This document shows positions 1-5,404 of a DNA stretch of 5,404 nt, piece by piece. Each line of letters begins with the position of its first letter. The first letter of the stretch is position 1. The stretch covers positions 1-5,404 of the forward strand of contig JAKQEZ010000278.1 of the NCBI GenBank assembly GCA_029558435.1, given 5' to 3'. This DNA is from Bacteroidota bacterium (lineage in GTDB: Bacteria > Bacteroidota > Bacteroidia > Flavobacteriales > Crocinitomicaceae). The translations under genes and the position numbers were made by a program. The notes below the pieces were generated by a model. The model saw only the letters and a program-made list of their open reading frames with translations, did not search any database and had not been told where the DNA came from.

Positions 1-31
1 TTCCCACGCTCCTAATCAATTTCCTCATCTT

Positions 32-49
32 AAAGAAATTAATTTCTTT
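32..49. repeat. 18-bp perfect palindrome
   Basis: AAAGAAATTAATTTCTTT is its own reverse complement, with 9-nt half-sites and no central spacer. It lies about 100 nt upstream of the first small gene, in an otherwise gene-free AT-rich leader (1-151). Such a site could be an operator for a dimeric regulator or a weak hairpin. No promoter could be identified beside it, so its role is open. AT-rich sequence makes chance palindromes more likely, but 18 exact bases is notable. Confidence 0.5.
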
Positions 50-151
50 GTACGAAAAACAAAATAGTAATAAATAAAAAATAAAACATCATGGAGAACG
101 TAATAGAAAACAATACAATCATCTTCACTAACTATAGTAGATGAACGTAAT

Positions 152-298
152 ATGCCTGAAAAGAAAATTTCAGCCCATTTAAGAAAGTTTAAAAGGATAA
201 AGTATAACTTAGTCCCGAAGATACTTAAACCGAAGGAAAAAAAATACATACTATCAAAAGTAGATTTTAAAGTAGAAATAAAAGAAGCAGAAGAATAA
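152..298 (+). CDS. small basic hypothetical protein (48 aa)
   Basis: This is an open frame of 48 codons beginning MPEKKISAHLRKFK and ending KEAEE. The first half is strongly basic (lysine and arginine clusters) and the tail is acidic. I do not recognise a family. The case for a real gene is contextual: its TAA stop shares one base with the ATG of the next frame (TAATG at 296-300), a typical coupled junction in compact phage operons. No Shine-Dalgarno sequence is visible; the bases before the ATG are AT-rich. There is no signal peptide or membrane segment. The N-terminal basic region could bind nucleic acid, but that is only a guess from composition. Confidence 0.5.
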   Translation: MPEKKISAHLRKFKRIKYNLVPKILKPKEKKYILSKVDFKVEIKEAEE

Positions 299-474
299 TG
301 AAAAAACCACCCAACATTAAAATAAGCCATATACAGGAGGATTTAAACCTAATAAGTAAATATACTCCAATTAATGCTAAAAGAGTGCGTAATTTATACT
401 TTGCAAGGCTTCTCTCAAACGAAATGAATAATTTTATTAATCAAGTAAATCAAATACTAAATGGAACAAGATAA
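298..474 (+). CDS. small hypothetical protein (58 aa)
   Basis: This 58-codon frame starts MKKPPNIKISHIQEDL and ends NQILNGTR. It begins on the last base of the preceding stop codon, and its 3' end overlaps the next gene by 14 nt (461-474). Both junctions suggest translational coupling in a polycistronic unit. The protein is basic, polar and probably helical in its second half (FARLLSNEMNNFINQVNQIL). I see no catalytic motif, membrane helix or recognised domain. An AGGAGG at 335-340 lies inside the gene and encodes part of Gln-Glu-Asp; it is not followed by a start codon at a useful distance. The function is unknown. Confidence 0.5.
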   Translation: MKKPPNIKISHIQEDLNLISKYTPINAKRVRNLYFARLLSNEMNNFINQVNQILNGTR

Positions 475-823
475 ATTTAGGGATATTCCCGGCCCCGATG
501 CTAATGATTTGGAGGAAATAGAAAAATGTGCAAGAGATCCGCTTTATTACTACAACAAATATGTTAGACTACCTGGACACGTTGAGCTTACTCAAGAACA
601 ATACGATGAAAAGCTAAAACAATACAAAAAGGAAGTTACACGCACTAAGGGAGCGAAAAACCTACTCAATAAGGTTGAGAGATTAAAGATTGAAAAAACT
701 CTCGCAAAAGGTCACGTATTGGATGCAGCGCACGATTCAGTTAAAAGGGAACTAAAAGAACAGGAAGAAGCAAAATTAAGCTGGGGAGAAAAACTAAAAA
801 GAAAACTTAAAAACAAAAAATAA
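461..823 (+). CDS. hypothetical phage-type protein, lysine-rich coiled C-terminus (120 aa)
   Basis: The 120-aa product begins MEQDKFRDIPGPDAND. An aromatic segment near residues 24-40 (ARDPLYYYNKYVRLPG) is followed by a long, highly charged, probably helical stretch from about residue 43 to the end, finishing in a basic tail (KLKRKLKNKK). The phrase 'DPLYYYNKYVRLPG' recalls the aromatic 'DP-Y-(F/Y)--NYV' segments near the N-terminus of some terminase-associated phage proteins, but that resemblance is weak and I assign no function. The start at 461 overlaps the previous gene by 14 nt, and the next gene begins 2 nt after the stop, so it sits in the middle of a coupled cluster. No membrane segment or cysteine cluster is present. 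Confidence 0.7.
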   Translation: MEQDKFRDIPGPDANDLEEIEKCARDPLYYYNKYVRLPGHVELTQEQYDEKLKQYKKEVTRTKGAKNLLNKVERLKIEKTLAKGHVLDAAHDSVKRELKEQEEAKLSWGEKLKRKLKNKK

Positions 824-825
824 AG

Positions 826-966
826 ATGAAAGGTCAATCAAAACAAAAGAAAGGTACTCCAAAGGTTATGAAATCAGAAGTACAAAAGCATTTCCATAAA
901 TGCAATCAAGAGGCTTTATTATTAAAGCAATTCAAGCAACAACAAGCAATGCTTGGAAGAATTTAA
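826..966 (+). CDS. small basic, glutamine-rich hypothetical protein (46 aa)
   Basis: This 46-codon frame starts MKGQSKQKKGTPKVM and ends KQQQAMLGRI. It opens two nucleotides after the previous stop, with an A-rich leader (AAATAAAG) before the ATG. The product is strongly basic at the N-terminus and rich in Gln and Lys overall, with one cysteine and two histidines in the middle (HFHKCN), too few for a zinc finger. Its position in the tight cluster is the main support. A strong 8-bp hairpin follows 11 nt after the stop. The function is unknown. Confidence 0.5.
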   Translation: MKGQSKQKKGTPKVMKSEVQKHFHKCNQEALLLKQFKQQQAMLGRI

Positions 967-977
967 AACAAAAATTA

Positions 978-997
978 GTTTGGGGTAACTCCCAAAC
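978..997 (+). other. 8-bp hairpin between the 46-aa gene and the tRNA-like element
   Basis: Bases 978-985 (GTTTGGGG) pair with 990-997 (TCCCAAAC): seven Watson-Crick pairs plus one G-T closing pair around the tetraloop TAAC. The downstream sequence (ATATATCAGG) is not a T-run, so it does not look like a classic intrinsic terminator. It ends four nucleotides before the tRNA-like element and could be a processing or insulating hairpin between the mRNA and that element. Confidence 0.5.
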
Positions 998-1000
998 ATA

Positions 1001-1083
1001 TATCAGGTAGTTTATACAGGTTAAAACGCAGCGTTTTGTCATGATGTTAGCTGAAAAATTGGGTTCGATTCCCGGTACTGATA
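1001..1083 (+). tRNA. tRNA-like element with abnormal anticodon region
   Basis: The D arm is convincing: stem GTTT (1010-1013) with AAAC (1024-1027), loop ATACAGGTTA containing the GG that contacts the T loop, and TA at 1008-1009 in the place of bases 8-9. The T arm is also convincing: stem TTGGG/CCCGG around loop TTCGATT (1059-1075). The acceptor ends pair as TATCAG (1001-1006) with CTGATA (1078-1083), but the seventh pair fails. The middle is odd. One fold pairs CAGC (1029-1032) with GCTG (1050-1053), leaving a normal 5-nt variable loop (AAAAA) but a 17-nt anticodon loop. The other pairs 1031-1035 with 1043-1047, mostly by G-U wobbles, giving a normal loop TTGTCAT with anticodon GTC (Asp) but a 10-11 nt variable region. 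No CCA is encoded. It may be a degenerate or divergent phage tRNA. Confidence 0.45.
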
Positions 1084-1097
1084 CAATACAATACAAT

Positions 1098-1397
1098 ATG
1101 ACACAAGACGAGTTTATATTAAAAGCATACGAAGTTGTAGCTCAAAGTGGGAAAGCAGAAATAAGTATCTTTAGAACACTACGTAGAGTAACAGGTATTC
1201 CAGAAAGAGAATTGAAAAGAGTTGTTGCCGAAAGTAGATTGTTTTTAGATATATGGAACAGAAAAGAAATGGATGCAACAGAAGAAGAGTTATTAAATTT
1301 CCCCGACTATACGTGGGAAAATCTATCGGAAGCAGAAAAACAATGGTACAATGAAAACAATACAATACAAAATCAAAATCTTCGTAATGATGCTTAA
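1098..1397 (+). CDS. hypothetical small phage-like protein (99 aa)
   Basis: The product starts MTQDEFILKAYEVVAQSG. A longer frame reaches back to an ATG at 1041, but its first 19 codons would translate the T arm and acceptor of the tRNA-like element (the 'LGSIPGT' part). The ATG at 1098, preceded by an A-rich ACAAT repeat, is therefore the better start. Residues about 20-50 (ISIFRTLRRVTGIPERELKRVVAES) look like a helix-turn-helix or compact helical bundle. The second half is acidic (MDATEEELLNFPDYTWENLSE) and ends in an asparagine-rich tail. No family is recognised. The stop overlaps an ATGATG that opens a 14-codon mini-frame (1387-1431) leading to the next gene, which may help couple translation. 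Confidence 0.65.
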   Translation: MTQDEFILKAYEVVAQSGKAEISIFRTLRRVTGIPERELKRVVAESRLFLDIWNRKEMDATEEELLNFPDYTWENLSEAEKQWYNENNTIQNQNLRNDA

Positions 1398-1420
1398 AGA
1401 AAGAACAAAAGAAATAATTA

Positions 1421-1426
1421 AAGGAG
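1421..1426 (+). promoter_or_regulatory. Shine-Dalgarno-like ribosome binding site
   Basis: AAGGAG lies 7 nt upstream of the ATG at 1434. It is the only clear Shine-Dalgarno sequence before a gene here; the other starts have A-rich leaders. It supports the 1434 start and sets this gene apart from the cassette genes. Confidence 0.6.
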
Positions 1427-1433
1427 AATAATT

Positions 1434-1772
1434 ATGATACAAGGATTTGAAGAATACACTATTGATGTTACTCCCGAAGAAATTAGGATAGTTAATCTTA
1501 TTGCTAAAAGTATTTCCCTGCGCATAGGGGCGGGAAATGCAATAACAAATAGAGAAATCAGAAAGAAACTTTCTGAAAGAAATGTGGATACTTCTGATGC
1601 TAAAATACGAAAGTACATACAATACATTCGTGTACACAATATGGCTACTAAACTTTGTGCTTCAAAAAAAGGTTATTACATAGCTGAATCTGAAGAAGAT
1701 TGGGTAAAGTACCGTGAATCTTTTAGAGAACGAGTAAGATCAATGCAATTTACATTGGCTTGTATGGGGTAA
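1434..1772 (+). CDS. winged-helix-like phage protein (112 aa)
   Basis: The 112-aa product begins MIQGFEEYTIDVTPEEIRIV. Residues about 14-86 have the pattern of a small winged-helix domain: helix (EEIRIVNLIAKSI), then the segment ITNREIRKKLSE, then a recognition-like helix (DAKIRKYIQYIRVHN), then a wing-like strand ending ASKKGYYIAES. The layout 'EIRKKL...IRKYIQYIR...GYYIA' is familiar from small DNA-binding proteins in phage early regions. This is pattern recognition, not a database hit, and no partner or DNA site is known. A good Shine-Dalgarno sequence supports the start. The TAA stop at 1770-1772 lies inside the R'' box of the first attC-like site, so the gene ends directly on the cassette boundary. 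Confidence 0.75.
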   Translation: MIQGFEEYTIDVTPEEIRIVNLIAKSISLRIGAGNAITNREIRKKLSERNVDTSDAKIRKYIQYIRVHNMATKLCASKKGYYIAESEEDWVKYRESFRERVRSMQFTLACMG

Positions 1773-1900
1773 CGTTCCGATTATTGTCGTCAGGTGGCGA
1801 CAAACACAAAAAAACTATTGATTAATAACTAAACATAAAAGTAATGACAGAATGTTCAGAGAATACACAAAACGCCACTTGCGACAATAATGTGTTAGGC
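1767..1900 (+). other. attC-like site 1
   Basis: R''-like GGGTAAC lies at 1767-1773 and R' GTTAGGC at 1894-1900; the latter fits the GTTRRRY consensus exactly. The arms pair as ATTATTGTCG (1780-1789) with CGACAATAAT (1882-1891), and GTGGCG (1794-1799) with CGCCAC (1873-1878). The loop of about 73 nt (1800-1872) contains the ATG of the methyltransferase frame. The matching left end (GTTACCC) of the cassette that this R'' closes is not found on the + strand between 1 and 1766. The left genes are therefore either the tail of a large cassette starting outside the window, or flanking DNA. Confidence 0.8.
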
Positions 1901-2671
1901 GATGTTTTTTCTAATCCTTATTTGATGCCTTCTGAATATAAAGGAGAATACACAAAGAATGGAGGATTAACTAAATTTCAACCACGCAAATGGACTGAAA
2001 AAGAAATTGAATGGGTAAATATGCTTAAAGAAAAAGGATTTAATACAAAGCAGATTGCAGAATGTATTGATAGAGATGTGACTCAAGTTTCAATTAAAAT
2101 CAAAAGATTGGGGAAAAAATCAATGACTTATAATCAAGGTCATTTTGAAGAAAAGTTTGCTGTAAATTACGATTTTGTAAAGATGATTAAACCAAAAAGT
2201 GTTCTTGATGTTTACGCTGGATTTGCAAGTGTTTATAAAAAACTAAATTGTGATAATGTAATAAGCAACGATAAGAACGAAAAGTCAAATACTGAATATC
2301 ATTTAGAAGCATTAGACTTTGTTTGCAAAATGTATATTGATAAACGAAAATTTGACCTTATAGATTTAGACCCTTTTGGAAGTGCTTATGATTGCTTTGA
2401 TTTGGCTATAAAAATGGCAAAGAAAGGATTAGTAATTACACTTGGGGAATTTGGACACAAAAGATTTAAAAGGCTTGATTTTGTCCGCAGATATTATGGG
2501 ATTGAAACCCTTGAAGATTTTACAACTGATAATTTAGTAAAGCATATTATTAAAATTGGAGAAAGAAACAAAAAAACTCTGACACCTATTTATGTGAAAG
2601 ATTGGAGAAACATAGCAAGGGTTTATTTTAAAATTGAACAACTAAAAATAACAGAACAATGGGAAAAGTAA
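1844..2671 (+). CDS. SAM-dependent methyltransferase with N-terminal helix-turn-helix (Trm1-like DPFG motif)
   Basis: The 275-residue frame has an N-terminal Myb/SANT- or sigma-4-like HTH at residues about 48-91 (RKWTEKEIEW...NTKQIAECIDRDVTQVSIKIKRLG). A class I methyltransferase fold follows: SAM-binding VLDVYAGFAS (120-129) and catalytic-type DLIDLDPFGS (171-180). The DPFG form is characteristic of Trm1-like tRNA guanine methyltransferases, whereas DNA methylases usually carry DPPY. The attached DNA-binding-like HTH makes a nucleic-acid methyltransferase likely but leaves the substrate (DNA or RNA) undecided. The start is uncertain. The ATG at 1844 has an A-rich leader but lies in the attC loop, so residues 1-17 are encoded by the upstream cassette's site. 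An in-frame ATG at 1925 (codon 28) would lie wholly inside cassette A. The gene overlaps the next by 13 nt. Confidence 0.75.
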   Translation: MTECSENTQNATCDNNVLGDVFSNPYLMPSEYKGEYTKNGGLTKFQPRKWTEKEIEWVNMLKEKGFNTKQIAECIDRDVTQVSIKIKRLGKKSMTYNQGHFEEKFAVNYDFVKMIKPKSVLDVYAGFASVYKKLNCDNVISNDKNEKSNTEYHLEALDFVCKMYIDKRKFDLIDLDPFGSAYDCFDLAIKMAKKGLVITLGEFGHKRFKRLDFVRRYYGIETLEDFTTDNLVKHIIKIGERNKKTLTPIYVKDWRNIARVYFKIEQLKITEQWEK

Positions 2672-2820
2672 TTAAATGTAAATTTTGGTGCAACGCAGGA
2701 AACACCGAAGAAGAAGTAGAAATTGAAATTGACGAAACGGAAAATGAAGAAAAACAGATTGAGCAAGAATTTCATAAGTGGTTAGACAACAATGAAGATG
2801 TCGGTTATGAGGTTCTTTAA
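2659..2820 (+). CDS. small acidic protein (53 aa), second gene of cassette A
   Basis: This frame of 53 codons starts MGKVIKCKFWCNAGNTEEEVEIEI and ends NNEDVGYEVL. Its ATG lies inside the end of the methyltransferase gene (13-nt overlap), so the two are probably translated from one message. The product is very acidic after residue 16. Its layout is a short beta-like start with two cysteines (C7, C11), the phrase CNAGNTEEEVEI, then a helix with a conserved-looking WLDNNEDVGYEV end. It resembles small phage proteins of similar build, though I cannot name the family with certainty. It stops 6 nt before the R'' box that closes the cassette. Confidence 0.65.
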   Translation: MGKVIKCKFWCNAGNTEEEVEIEIDETENEEKQIEQEFHKWLDNNEDVGYEVL

Positions 2821-2826
2821 AATATC

Positions 2827-2959
2827 GCCTAACGTATCGGTGCTATACGATGTGGCGGACTTTCAGCACGAAAGTCTAATACAAAGCACCACAGTTTGAA
2901 TTAGTACAAATGTTTAACCGAAGCACGTCAGCCGCCATATTGTATAGCACTTGTTAGCG
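2827..2959 (+). other. attC-like site 2 (closes cassette A)
   Basis: R'' GCCTAAC (2827-2833) and R' GTTAGCG (2953-2959) flank a long imperfect hairpin. GTGCTATAC (2840-2848) through GTGGCGG (to 2858) pairs with 2932-2950 over 19 positions, 17 Watson-Crick and two G-T. The loop is about 73 nt. R'' matches the cassette's own left end (GTTAGGC at 1894-1900), not the R' beside it. The loop and 3' arm share a perfect 30-nt repeat with site 3 (2911-2940 and 3305-3334). Confidence 0.85.
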
Positions 2960-2987
2960 GCTGCCCTTCTTCACAAATCGAAATAAA

Positions 2988-3215
2988 ATGACAGAAGAAC
3001 AAATTAGAGAGCTTGGTTGGAAACTCGTTAAACAATACAACCACGACCAATATCATACTAACCGATACAAATTAGGATGTATGGAAATTGAATTTACTTA
3101 TGAGGGCAAAGAATTACTGACCCACGATGTAACTATTACAGAGTTGAATTGTATGCCAATTTCATTAAACCAAGCGAAACTGTTAACGGAACTTCTCGGA
3201 CACTGGTCTGAATAG
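2988..3215 (+). CDS. hypothetical cassette protein (75 aa), cassette B
   Basis: This is the only gene of the 394-nt cassette B. It begins MTEEQIRELGWKLVKQYNHDQ and ends TELLGHWSE. The pattern is an N-terminal helix, a central beta-like part (YKLGCMEIEFTY...THDVTITEL) and a C-terminal helix (SLNQAKLLTELLGHW). It is polar, with no signal peptide, membrane helix or catalytic motif, and I do not recognise the family. The start is supported by an A-rich leader (AAATCGAAATAAAATG) nearly identical to that of the next cassette. Small one-gene cassettes of unknown function are the usual cargo of integron arrays. Confidence 0.75.
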   Translation: MTEEQIRELGWKLVKQYNHDQYHTNRYKLGCMEIEFTYEGKELLTHDVTITELNCMPISLNQAKLLTELLGHWSE

Positions 3216-3221
3216 GGTTGC

Positions 3222-3353
3222 CGCTAACGGTTCGGGTATTAGCGATGTGGCGGATTTTTAGCACCACAGCCGATACGAAGAACCACAGTTGATTAAAGTA
3301 AAAATGTTTAACCGAAGCACGTCAGCCGCCATATAGCTAATACCTTGTTAGCG
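3222..3353 (+). other. attC-like site 3 (closes cassette B)
   Basis: R'' CGCTAAC (3222-3228) pairs with R' GTTAGCG (3347-3353). This is the only site where the two boxes match, because cassettes B and C share end sequences. The arms 3235-3253 and 3326-3344 pair over 19 positions with one mismatch and one G-T. The loop is about 72 nt and carries the CGAAGCACGT decamer (3313-3322) beside the 3' arm, as in site 2. Confidence 0.85.
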
Positions 3354-3382
3354 GATGCCCTTGCTTCACAAATCAAAATAAA

Positions 3383-3646
3383 ATGAAAATTGCAGGTTGC
3401 ATAATTCAAAAACGTCAGATACTTGACAACACATTAGCCCTTTTTAATGCCAATTACAAGGGTAAGCGAATTTACATATCAAAAGACCACGGGTTTGGCA
3501 AACCAATTTACCCACAGTTGTCAAGATTCTTGATTGATGTAGTTGACATAAAAACAGGAATGTACGATGTGCAAACCTATCAAGATTTTGAGCATATAGA
3601 CGAAGCAATAGAATATGCTTTAAAAGGGGCAATGCTGGTGTCATAG
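3383..3646 (+). CDS. hypothetical cassette protein (87 aa), cassette C
   Basis: This is the sole gene of the 384-nt cassette C. The product begins MKIAGCIIQKRQILDNTLAL and ends ALKGAMLVS. It looks like a small alpha/beta protein: a beta-like start, a basic segment (NYKGKRIYISKDHGFGKP), a strand (FLIDVVDIKTGMYDVQTYQDF) and a final helix (IDEAIEYALKGAML). I recognise no family. The cassette's ends are near-copies of cassette B's ends while the coding cores are unrelated in sequence, so the ends behave as a conserved frame around an exchangeable gene. The gene stops 6 nt before the R'' core, within the shared TAGGGTTGCCGC flank. Confidence 0.75.
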   Translation: MKIAGCIIQKRQILDNTLALFNANYKGKRIYISKDHGFGKPIYPQLSRFLIDVVDIKTGMYDVQTYQDFEHIDEAIEYALKGAMLVS

Positions 3647-3652
3647 GGTTGC

Positions 3653-3737
3653 CGCTAACGGTTTGCGGCTTTGTGTCAGGCTGCGAAGCGTTGGCATTGA
3701 GCGGTGTCGGGCAGCTTGCACAAAACCGCTGTTATGC
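3653..3737 (+). other. attC-like site 4, compact form (closes cassette C)
   Basis: R'' CGCTAAC (3653-3659) and R' GTTATGC (3731-3737) bound an 85-nt site with a 26-nt loop, much shorter and more GC-rich than the neighbouring sites of about 130 nt. The arms 3665-3684 and 3711-3729 pair around GCGG, TTTGTG and GCTGC, with a few mismatches. R'' matches cassette C's left end (GTTAGCGG at 3347), and R' opens cassette D. Confidence 0.8.
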
Positions 3738-3783
3738 TCTCGTTGCCTTCGGGTAGGATTAGAAACAATTTAAAAACAAAAAT

Positions 3784-4068
3784 ATGACTTTATCACCAGA
3801 GGCAGTAGCAGCCTACAAAAAGCTAATGACAGAGCCAAAAGAAAACGGCTTAGACATTCAACCACTTTCGGAAGTGTTTGAGATAACAGAAGATGCAACA
3901 GCTAAACACTTGCTTTATGAGCAGTATTTGACGAAGATAAACAAGACGAAAGACCAATTGCCAAAAGTTTTCTTTTATATCATTATGGATGAAACCTATC
4001 AACAAAAAAAGGCTGCGGATGGTAACTTAGGATATTGTGTCCGTGTGTCGGCAGGCAATGGAGCATAA
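3784..4068 (+). CDS. hypothetical cassette protein (94 aa), cassette D
   Basis: This is the sole gene of cassette D (459 nt). It starts MTLSPEAVAAYKKLMTEPKE and ends GYCVRVSAGNGA. The first two thirds look helical (AVAAYKKLM; TAKHLLYEQYLTKINKTKDQL). A beta-like stretch follows (KVFFYIIMDETYQQKKAADGNLGYCVRVS). I do not recognise the family and see no catalytic signature or membrane segment. The leader is A-rich (AATTTAAAAACAAAAATATG). The TAA stop (4066-4068) is part of the GCATAAC R'' box, so the last codons (Ala-Gly-Asn-Gly-Ala) are encoded by cassette-end sequence and could change if the boundary changed. Confidence 0.7.
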   Translation: MTLSPEAVAAYKKLMTEPKENGLDIQPLSEVFEITEDATAKHLLYEQYLTKINKTKDQLPKVFFYIIMDETYQQKKAADGNLGYCVRVSAGNGA

Positions 4069-4196
4069 CGTTTTCGGGCTTGGCGAAGAAGCGGATTTAA
4101 CAGCACAAAATTATCAAATATGCACTACACTAAATTAAAGGCACAACTGTTCGGATTACCACCGTAGCCCGCTTTTTTGCCAAACCCGTGTTATAT
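4063..4196 (+). other. attC-like site 5 (closes cassette D)
   Basis: R'' GCATAAC (4063-4069) and R' GTTATAT (4190-4196) flank arms 4075-4094 (from CGGGCTTGGC) and 4169-4188 (to CCAAACCCG), which pair with mainly G-T deviations. The loop is about 74 nt. R'' matches the GTTATGC at 3731 that opens cassette D, and R' opens the thyX cassette. Confidence 0.8.
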
Positions 4197-4238
4197 GAAG
4201 GTTGGATTTCACGCACGACACTTTCATCGAAGCACGTA

Positions 4239-4265
4239 AAAGAAAAAAGAAAAAATGAGCGTGGG
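4239..4265. repeat. purine-rich repeat and GAGCGTGGG motif at the left end of cassette E
   Basis: AAAGAAAAAAGAAAAAAT (4239-4256) is followed directly by GAGCGTGGG (4257-4265) and preceded by ATCGAAGCACGT (4226-4237). All three recur at the right end of the same cassette: the purine tract inverted at 5174-5191, GAGCGTGGG direct at 5162-5170, and ATCGAAGCACGT direct at 5206-5217. The 4191-4287 leader holds no gene. Confidence 0.7.
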
Positions 4266-4287
4266 AAACATTTAAATTTAAACAAAA

Positions 4288-4941
4288 ATGAACGTAAAAT
4301 TAGTATCAGTAACAAAATCTTTGATAGAAGAAAAACAACTATCACCTGAAGAATTGATTGTCTATGTTGCTCGTGTAAGCAACCCATCAAATCAACTAAA
4401 CTCCGAAACATCGGATAAACTTATTGCCTATATGGTAAAAAATAAACATTGGTCACCTTTTGAAATGTGCGATATGACTGTGGAAATTGTAACGAGTAGA
4501 GGAATTGCACAACAAATTTTAAGACATCGCTCTTTCTCTTTTCAAGAATTTTCACAGCGTTATGCAGAAGTCACATACTTTGAAGCTGTCCAATTGAGAA
4601 AATCAGGAACTACTAACAGACAAAGTAGTTCAGAGGTTTTTAACCCAATTATTGACGGTAATATTGAAGCATCACGAATTATTGAAAATCACTTAAAAGA
4701 AAGTGAAGATTTATATAAATCATTGCTAAATGCGGGTGTAGCAAAAGAGTGTGCAAGATTTGTTTTGCCAATAACAACTCAAACGAAAATATATATGAAA
4801 GGCAGTATCAGAAGTTGGATACACTATTTGCAGATTCGTTGTGATGGTCATACACAATTAGAACACCAACAAATAGCAATGCAAATTTTGGACTTGTTCA
4901 AGTCTAATTTTCCTAACATTTCAAAAGCTTTAGAACTATGA
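4288..4941 (+). CDS. thyX: FAD-dependent thymidylate synthase ThyX
   Basis: ThyX makes dTMP from dUMP using methylene-tetrahydrofolate, with FAD and NADPH for reduction, in the cytoplasm as a homotetramer. The 217-aa length is normal. The signature RHRX7S is present at residues 79-89 within RHRSFSFQEFSQR. Other family features are H54-SPFE (HWSPFEM), ARFVLP (156-161) and the SIRSWIHYLQIR segment (173-184), whose R175 aligns with the conserved dUMP-binding arginine. The RHRSFSFQEFSQR form is one I associate with phage and Bacteroidota ThyX; that is recall, not a search. The stop overlaps the next start (ATGA), so thyX and the DUF3310 gene form a two-gene operon within cassette E. The leader is A-rich (AAATTTAAACAAAAATG). 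Confidence 0.95.
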   Translation: MNVKLVSVTKSLIEEKQLSPEELIVYVARVSNPSNQLNSETSDKLIAYMVKNKHWSPFEMCDMTVEIVTSRGIAQQILRHRSFSFQEFSQRYAEVTYFEAVQLRKSGTTNRQSSSEVFNPIIDGNIEASRIIENHLKESEDLYKSLLNAGVAKECARFVLPITTQTKIYMKGSIRSWIHYLQIRCDGHTQLEHQQIAMQILDLFKSNFPNISKALEL

Positions 4942-5159
4942 GCGAACAAGTAAATCATCCGCAACACTATGGTGGTGCTGAAAATCCTTATGAAGCGATA
5001 AAAGTAATTGAGGCTTGGGATTTAGGGTTTTGCTTAGGTAATACGGTAAAGTATATTTCAAGAGCTGGTAAAAAGGAGACCGATAAAACAGTTCAAGATT
5101 TAGAAAAAGCAAAATGGTATTTAGAACGTGAAATTCAAAAGCTAAAAACCAAATCTTAA
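4938..5159 (+). CDS. DUF3310 family phage protein (73 aa)
   Basis: The 73-aa product shows the DUF3310 pattern almost throughout: VNHPQHYGG (5-13), then YEAIKVIEAWDLGFCLGN (18-35), then KYISRAGKKE (38-47), then DLEKAKWYLEREI (54-66). This family is found mainly in phages and prophages. Some members are labelled 'nucleotide kinase' in databases, but I see no P-loop and treat the activity as unproven. Its ATG overlaps the thyX stop (ATGA), so the two are co-translated. The pairing with thyX is consistent with a role in phage nucleotide metabolism. The length is full for the family. It ends 2 nt before the hairpin-rich right end of cassette E. Confidence 0.9.
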   Translation: MSEQVNHPQHYGGAENPYEAIKVIEAWDLGFCLGNTVKYISRAGKKETDKTVQDLEKAKWYLEREIQKLKTKS

Positions 5160-5165
5160 TTGAGC

Positions 5166-5225
5166 GTGGGCAGATTTTTTCTTTTTTCTTTCTCACAGAA
5201 CTTAAATCGAAGCACGTCTGCCCAC
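5166..5225 (+). other. extra hairpin at the end of cassette E (attC-like remnant)
   Basis: GTGGGCAGA (5166-5174) pairs perfectly with TCTGCCCAC (5217-5225), with a 42-nt loop that carries CGAAGCACGT (5208-5217) beside the 3' arm, as in sites 2 and 3. It lacks a good R' box, because TTTCATATAAC belonging to the next site follows at once. It looks like a decayed or partial attC stacked directly before site 6. It might also act as a transcription terminator, but no T-run follows. Confidence 0.6.
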
Positions 5226-5229
5226 TTTC

Positions 5230-5360
5230 ATATAACGGTCGGTGCTATGTACCGTTTGGGATTACGAAGCACAGATTTATCAATTTACAATAACTTTTAA
5301 AACGAGAACGAATGTTGAATTTACCACAAAAACCCAAATGGGATATAGCACGTGTTAGCC
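5230..5360 (+). other. attC-like site 6 (closes cassette E)
   Basis: R'' ATATAAC (5230-5236) and R' GTTAGCC (5354-5360) flank arms 5242-5260 (GTGCTATGTACCGTTTGGG) and 5333-5351, which pair over 19 positions with one mismatch and two G-T. The loop is about 72 nt and holds the ATG at 5312 that opens the frame running to the window end. R'' matches the GTTATAT at 4190 that opens cassette E. Confidence 0.85.
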
Positions 5361-5404
5361 ACAGTACGTTGGTTAATGCTGATTGCTTTGATGTTTTTCC
5401 TTTT
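5312..5404 (+). CDS. start of a probable DNA methyltransferase (partial, runs off the right edge)
   Basis: Only 31 codons are visible, beginning MLNLPQKPKWDIARV and reaching LVNADCFDVFPF at the edge. The phrase NADCFDVFP is like the N-terminal 'GDC-(F/L)-DV' segment before the first SAM-contact region of type II and orphan adenine or cytosine-N4 DNA methyltransferases. The catalytic DPPY motif would lie beyond the window, so the call is tentative. Residues 1-14 are encoded by the loop and 3' arm of attC-like site 6, and codon 15 spans the recombination point (5354/5355). A start inside the cassette would have to be a non-ATG codon such as TTG at 5369. Confidence 0.5.
   Translation, partial: MLNLPQKPKWDIARVSHSTLVNADCFDVFPF

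Follow-up and report, generated by a model that had tools for sequence, protein, structure and literature searches.

A probable tailed phage, likely of Bacteroidota, appears to carry integron-like cassettes in which the hairpin precedes its gene

A 5,404-nucleotide contig assigned to a Bacteroidota bacterium (JAKQEZ010000278.1; its whole length is referred to here as the window) bears a row of hairpins resembling the attC sites of integrons between small genes, raising the question of what the moving unit of such a row is, where it is exchanged and which enzyme might exchange it. A sequence-only reading had proposed five cassettes beside phage-like genes, each moved by an integron integrase cutting at G/TT of the R' box, and its interpretation as a whole was partly supported by the analysis reported here. 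We consider it probable that the window holds a tailed-phage array of integron-like cassettes with polarity reversed relative to their genes, such that each unit consists of an attC-like hairpin and then a gene.

Sites were sought with our own hairpin scan at strict and looser settings, and are described here against canonical attC geometry. The window contains six attC-like sites, all on the plus strand: S0 (1770-1900; 10/12 arm pairs), S1 (2830-2960; 11/12), S2 (3225-3354; 11/12), S3 (3656-3739; 9/12, with a short loop), S4 (4066-4199; 10/12) and S5 (5233-5360; 9/12). Their TAAC boxes lie at 1770, 2830, 3225, 3656, 4066 and 5233, and their GTTA boxes at 1894, 2953, 3347, 3731, 4190 and 5354. 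The strict scan recovered five of the six, compared to a chance expectation of 0.04 per 5.4 kb and strand, and none on the opposite strand; S5 appeared only in the looser scan, where 0.89 sites are expected by chance, and was entered by hand into later counts. A cluster of attC sites lacking integron-integrases (CALIN) is recognized by at least 2 attC sites with R''/R' boxes around an imperfect hairpin, of which the window has 5 (strict) or 6 (loose), and by complementary boxes at cassette ends. Box positions 5-8 agreed at 4/4 across both ends of all 5 window cassettes and, across all loci then compared (the window's five included), in 91 of 145 cassettes, while boxes within one site matched in 5 and 8 of the same 145. 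At the pooled same-site rate of 13/290, the chance of five exact end matches is ~2e-7 by arithmetic estimate. The exactly matching ends originally described thus held for all five cassettes over the boxes quoted, as did the statement that R'' and R' of one site agree only once in six, the exact match being at S2. A symmetry of phases within a cassette was sought and was not found. As a separate observation, ~38 bases after R' of S1 (2830-2990) and S2 (3225-3385) are common to many of 27 viral contigs, and the loops of both sites hold a mini open reading frame (ORF) terminating at the TAG of R', like ORF-11 in attI1.

Several units recur elsewhere together with their hairpins. Unit B, composed of the S1 hairpin and a 75-aa ORF with its own start at 2988 (2833-3227), is found with its upstream hairpin (window 2831-3230) at 92% identity in a 37.6-kb contig with a terminase match (L055), where homology ends at the next box. 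Likewise, unit C, composed of the S2 hairpin and an 87-aa ORF with its own start at 3383 (3228-3658), is found (window 3225-3670) at 80% in a 38.6-kb contig that also has a terminase match (L052). A contig of a Bacteroidia metagenome-assembled genome (MAG; L071) carries both ends of unit E (4065-4276 and 5158-5237) around another payload that lacks thyX. Since both candidate units contain both boxes, matching ends do not decide which box is cut, and we examined the ends of homologous blocks. Comparison of 281 oriented sequences gave 616 blocks with an identity of at least 88% and a length of at least 180 bp, whose distinct ends numbered 254 on the left and 279 on the right. Of these, 65 left and 37 right ends fell within 8 bases of the YAAC box that precedes a hairpin, compared to 11 left and 1 right within 8 bases of R'; a further 15 left and 5 right lay 9-15 bases from a box. 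Block ends thus favor the TAAC box before the hairpin over the proposed cut at G/TT of R', and the unit would therefore be the hairpin plus the gene after it. At block ends that coincide with a box, the hairpin travels with the gene after it, and exchange at R' is rarer. In some units the TAA of the YAAC box is also the stop codon of the preceding gene. An early reading in which the cassette was R', gene, R'' and hairpin, with leaders supplied by the neighboring cassette, was dropped after this count and the mumin comparison below.

A weak match pointed to cultured Flavobacterium phages of the genera Muminvirus and Lillamyvirus, and we compared 8 pairs among 14 isolates. Phages sniff9-1 and sniff9-2 are one 439-bp unit apart, with both flanks 100% identical, while mumin6-1 and mumin6-3 differ by 506 bp between flanks of 99.9% identity, one mumin6-1 site being recognized by eye only. 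Hemulen6-1 and stinky9-1 differ by two units, and in lillamy9-1 and lillamy9-6 one unit is replaced by another. In these clearest pairs the ends lie no more than 12 bases from the box before a hairpin. The pairs snork6-1/6-2 and snusmum6-1/9-1 show less simple differences, two further pairs are more distant, and blocks have moved between mumin6-1 and snork6-1. Rearranged and empty-site versions, on which the sequence-only reading had staked its mobile cassettes, are therefore present among both contigs and isolate pairs. Gene order is consistent with these findings: hairpin-first arrangements outnumbered the reverse by 24 to 2 in viral contigs of the S1 pattern and by 13 to 0 in phage isolates, as well as by 15 to 0 in the S0-pattern set and 198 to 10 (1 undecided) in the leader-pattern set, the latter two being biased by their patterns. 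Taken together, these comparisons demonstrate that hairpin and gene are gained, lost and moved together as one unit, with exchange apparently concentrated at the YAAC box in front of each hairpin. As judged from block ends, isolate pairs and gene order, the canonical arrangement, with crossover at G/TT of R' and the gene upstream of its attC, does not appear to describe these arrays. Separately, 46 Flavobacterium phage records share a 603-bp piece at an array end (L312, 992-1594) at 99.7% identity or more, and 28 of them match nothing else of the 1.5-kb query.

We then considered whether these sites constitute an ordinary CALIN, in which canonical IntI cuts at G/TT of R' and genes merely happen to run through the hairpin. 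The attC-like architecture and matching ends would fit such a cluster; moreover, CALINs have been described in phages, where IntI1 recombined 5 of the 6 attC sites tested (PMC9892861). In addition to the scarcity of block ends at R', searches for the enzyme argue against it: an integron integrase above the TIGR02249 cut-off was found in 0 of 49 viral records, many of them fragments, and in 1 of 395 Bacteroidia (G199), with no site in the 16 kb examined, while IntI was found in 0 of 199 Flavobacterium at E<=1e-45 by the search that had detected one at 1.9e-126 among the Bacteroidia, no control matching in the Flavobacterium run either. The search for intI recommended earlier also returned no integron integrase on a 40.5-kb relative of the window, the window itself being too short to tell. 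Weak IntI-like matches in two viral records (G006 and G014) skip the stretch specific to IntI and were rejected. We regard an ordinary CALIN as unlikely.

A different recombinase is suggested by chromosomal arrays. A covariance model built from 28 sites matched 143 of 198 Bacteroidia genomes at E<=1e-4, compared to 1 of 81 genomes of an archaeal control class, namely the genome chosen as its center for having a site. (In the archaeal MAG G057 all 14 sites are on a single contig, C129, perhaps misbinned phage DNA.) Chromosomal Bacteroidia stretches have the canonical order, with the gene before the hairpin in 53 vs 6 cases and 2 undecided (n=61). In 5 of 12 regions from strong model matches, a motif search found an IntI/XerA-like tyrosine-recombinase ORF just beyond the array. 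At E<=1e-70, 53 of 99 Bacteroidia genomes and 53 of 101 Flavobacterium genomes contain relatives of four of these five recombinases, although the weaker matches may be other recombinases. Two of the candidates scored 206.7 and 188.2 bits against TIGR02249, below its curated cut-off of 265, and 217.5 and 232.1 bits against NF040815 (site-specific tyrosine recombinase/integron integrase; curated cut-off 220); the alignment to TIGR02249 is in two pieces and skips model positions ~176-240. In G055, short C-terminal recombinase fragments were noted on contigs C4, C8, C14, C28, C30, C31, C51 and C55, several at contig ends. Twenty windows around listed recombinase matches contained 37 sites in 12 windows, compared to 4 sites in 20 control windows, although 9 of the 20 had been chosen in the knowledge that their contig carried sites, and three of these 9 repeat arrays already counted. 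Thirty-five of the 37 sites lie downstream of the recombinase and point one way, while 2 lie upstream and point the other, such that the array runs away from the recombinase in all 12 windows with sites. Side and direction of the array, which were not part of the window choice, are better evidence than the site counts.

ORF A of unit A (1844-2671; 275 aa) begins in the S0 hairpin at ATG 1844 with the leader MTECSENTQNATCDNNV and continues in frame across R' at 1894. Likewise, the gene after S5 begins in the S5 hairpin at ATG 5312, where the leader MLNLPQKPKWDIAR meets, at 5354, a body that continues past the window's end (5312-5404 being the start of the unit F gene); by eye, the 17 residues of this body fit the VSGSTFVNADCFDVFPF family, which is annotated as a DNA methyltransferase in phage mumin6-1. 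We scanned viral contigs with leader patterns comprising only the leader C-terminus and R', which carry no information on the ATG or the downstream frame. Four patterns yielded 101 distinct sites, 76 with a partner arm and 96 with enough downstream sequence; at 81 of the 96 the leader ATG and at least 40 codons occurred in the predicted frame, while the other two frames were open for at least 40 codons at 5 and 7. For a fifth pattern, which allows two phases, leader and body had the same phase at 36 (phase 0) and 17 (phase 1) of 92 sites. Pooling all five patterns gave 182 sites, of which 144 have a partner arm; 130 could be scored, with a single phase each for leader and body, and the two agreed at 126 of the 130. 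The remaining sites had neither leader nor body (27), leader only (11), body only (2) or more than one phase (12).

The bodies behind hairpin leaders often lack an ATG of their own near R'. The 138 fused genes form 62 body families (largest n=34), and no ATG occurs within the first 20 codons of 99 genes, or of any member in 44 families; 42 genes are free of ATG, GTG and TTG alike over that stretch. Of the 849 homologs of ORF A, 120 were listed and inspected; 84 of these hold the junction motif, with pairwise identity of 0.25 before the junction and 0.92 after it, and they fall into 27 leader clusters, some very short or possibly not hairpin leaders. In viral contigs, the S0 leader and FGNV leaders were observed together with their hairpin. 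A second body, free of ATG over 60 codons, has 43 homologs with several kinds of N-terminus, and a DLPYG motif precedes the first ATG in all 12 NADCFDVF-family members listed. Some bodies thus follow several kinds of leader, and a single kind of leader precedes many bodies. In three isolate genomes, the annotated array genes with a start inside a hairpin number 4/17, 7/26 and 4/16, some of these cases being doubtful. Among the mumin, sniff and lillamy isolates, one methyltransferase with a predicted leader begins MIDRITEQPFCQTR. Taken together, these results demonstrate that many hairpins hold an ATG and a predicted leader that is open through R' in phase with the next gene. In a viral contig (L120, minus strand, oriented position 2321), a hairpin leader is also fused to a class I tRNA-synthetase-like protein of 442 aa.

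Alternatively, the leaders may be untranslated, with true starts within the bodies and the open hairpin frame a by-product of hairpin sequence and coding bias. Several observations weigh against the reading that we favor, and the first three of them lean this way: ORF A has an ATG 10 codons past R'; an ATG occurs in the first 20 codons of 39 of the 138 fused genes, and a possible start in 96 once GTG and TTG count; a crude all-sites test was uninformative, with in-frame fusions at 36 of 112 sites vs 26.5% at random same-strand positions; and the 130 scorable sites share ancestry and hence are not independent. Nevertheless, the phase agreement, the 44 families without any early ATG and the position of DLPYG make this alternative rather improbable. 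The longest sense-strand gene has its own start in 51 of the 91 matched-end cassettes, window units B, C, D and E included; together with an all-sites fusion rate hardly above random, this indicates that leaders are one of two modes.

Further points on the same side concern exchange and enzyme. Most block ends coincide with no box (163 of 254 left and 236 of 279 right), and 7 of the 12 chromosomal regions showed no recombinase-like ORF. Eight of the 20 recombinase windows have no site, although 6 of these 8 have less than 2.7 kb of downstream sequence, and sites occur in 3 of the 11 windows not picked for them, no higher a share than among the controls (4 of 20). The candidate recombinase is known from other genomes and not from the hosts LMO6 and LMO9, and the support is sequence comparison throughout. 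Exchange without a site-specific enzyme, by template switching or by homologous recombination between short repeats (TAACGTT) at hairpins under phage recombination functions, would fit the 7-base repeat at the mumin break points and the lack of a PF00589 match in all 6 phage records searched, but is the least likely alternative given matching ends in 91 of 145 cassettes, replacement by other units and the same units in different contigs, which point to a common site.

In the hairpin-first cassette array that we favor, exchange would occur mainly at the YAAC box, with hairpin and following gene as the moving unit; translation would start inside the hairpin; and leaders would be swapped by rarer events at R'. 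A host recombinase, perhaps the IntI/XerA-like one beside some chromosomal arrays, may be the enzyme and act in trans on the phage DNA. A likely use would be quick exchange of accessory genes, including methyltransferases against host restriction. We give roughly even chances to a broader proposal: Bacteroidota would possess an integron class of their own that is widespread yet has been overlooked because the IntI-recognition stretch is absent from its recombinase, and virulent phages would have borrowed its sites in reversed polarity, making the hairpin a start-codon exon and assembling proteins from interchangeable leaders and start-less bodies in matching phase.

The sequence preceding the array points to its carrier. 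Window positions 1-1769 (plus strand; small genes) align to a 40.5-kb IMG/VR contig (L001, the same as G001) in four blocks totaling 1446 bp at 92.6, 88.5, 95.4 and 91.8% identity, and homology breaks off at 1769, where the TAAC box of S0 begins; the TAA of this box is the stop codon of ORF 1434-1772. Proteins of L001 match terminase large subunit and portal families, neither gene lying inside the window. The proposed mobile cassettes beside phage genes are supported. L001 has no PF00589 match and carries two strict sites of its own further along, beside other genes. The window is, as judged from this flank, probably a piece of a tailed phage, and probably one of Bacteroidota. Among contigs, terminase family PF03237 matched 13 of 50, 12 above cut-off; this single family misses G001, whose terminase a PHROG detects. 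ORF 461-823 (120 aa) resembles part of terminase family phrog_5989 (2.5e-5) and has a single match among viral contigs, a relative at 89% protein identity; a full terminase lies elsewhere in G001. ARAGORN reports a tRNA-Asp-like gene at 1002-1084 (Rfam score 23, under the gathering score of 29), and the stretch 967-1096 is 95% conserved in L001; the Rfam search of the window gave nothing useful.

The remaining cargo is mixed. Unit A (1773-2832) comprises the S0 hairpin, ORF A and a 53-aa ORF up to the next YAA, and unit D (3659-4068) the S3 hairpin and a 94-aa ORF with its own start at 3784; boxes of both match 4/4. Unit E (4069-5235) comprises the S4 hairpin, thyX (4288-4941) and a DUF3310 gene (4938-5159), whose products match PF02511 at 1.3e-49 and PF11753 at 5.4e-16. 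The predicted thyX and DUF3310 cargo was thus confirmed. ORF A is methyltransferase-like, matching PF02005 narrowly at 28.8 bits (cut-off 27), with weak matches to a D5-like regulator and a phage DNA methyltransferase family; ORFs of units B, C and D have no Pfam match. Among thyX relatives L002-L008, only L002, L007 and L008 have a strict site, one each. The ends of unit E also contain an 18-base perfect inverted repeat (4239-4256 / 5174-5191) and recur with it in L071 around the other payload, which raises the question of whether a cassette frame was refilled with phage genes.

If correct, phages would own a ready exchange system for accessory genes, integron-like platforms would be extended in a phylum for which one tool paper names very few, and site-specific recombination joining start codons to genes would have a natural case. 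It would also offer an explanation for a connection, already in print, between the plating of Baltic Flavobacterium phages and their methyltransferase content: the available part of PMC7077304 calls its phages virulent and reports that LMO9 phages that plate poorly on LMO6 lack a specific methyltransferase; the words integron, attC and cassette are absent from its main text. With cultured phages and hosts, the proposal is directly testable.

How do these arrays relate to known systems? Bacteroidota are among the phyla with integrons in the accessible part of PMC8618304. Judged by titles and abstract openings, the literature searched showed nothing on attC start codons serving start-less cassettes, nor on this recombinase, with most subscription papers and all preprints outside its coverage. 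A phage with a cassette array is less unusual than first supposed: similar sites occur often in IMG/VR contigs, a set that is not made up entirely of proven phages, and Qi et al. 2023 (PMC9892861), in the part available, describe attC clusters without integrase in virulent phages, including the Bacteroidota phage P12002L. As a control, this Polaribacter phage gave two strict hits outside the methyltransferase region, several looser ones and nothing clear. The likeness to those clusters lies in the methyltransferase cargo and the missing integrase, and divergent attC directions are mentioned there; a hairpin-first unit, a hairpin start codon and an isolate pair one cassette apart are not described in that part. 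Hairpin-first exchange, start-codon hairpins and chromosomal Bacteroidia arrays of canonical order, some beside a sub-cut-off recombinase, go beyond what we found in print. With integrons (IntI, attI and attC) the arrays share R''/R' boxes, hairpins and complementary ends of one cassette, whereas here the phage gene follows its hairpin and the candidate recombinase scores under the IntI cut-off. ORF-11, ORF-17, ORF-18 and short ORFs in attC (PMC8876359, as far as available) likewise let a recombination site aid translation of the next gene, but mostly by coupling or reinitiation rather than by in-frame fusion to genes often without a start. Finally, fused cassettes (PMC4670013, in the part available) also join two genes in an array, but by loss of attC, whereas here they are joined through a complete hairpin.

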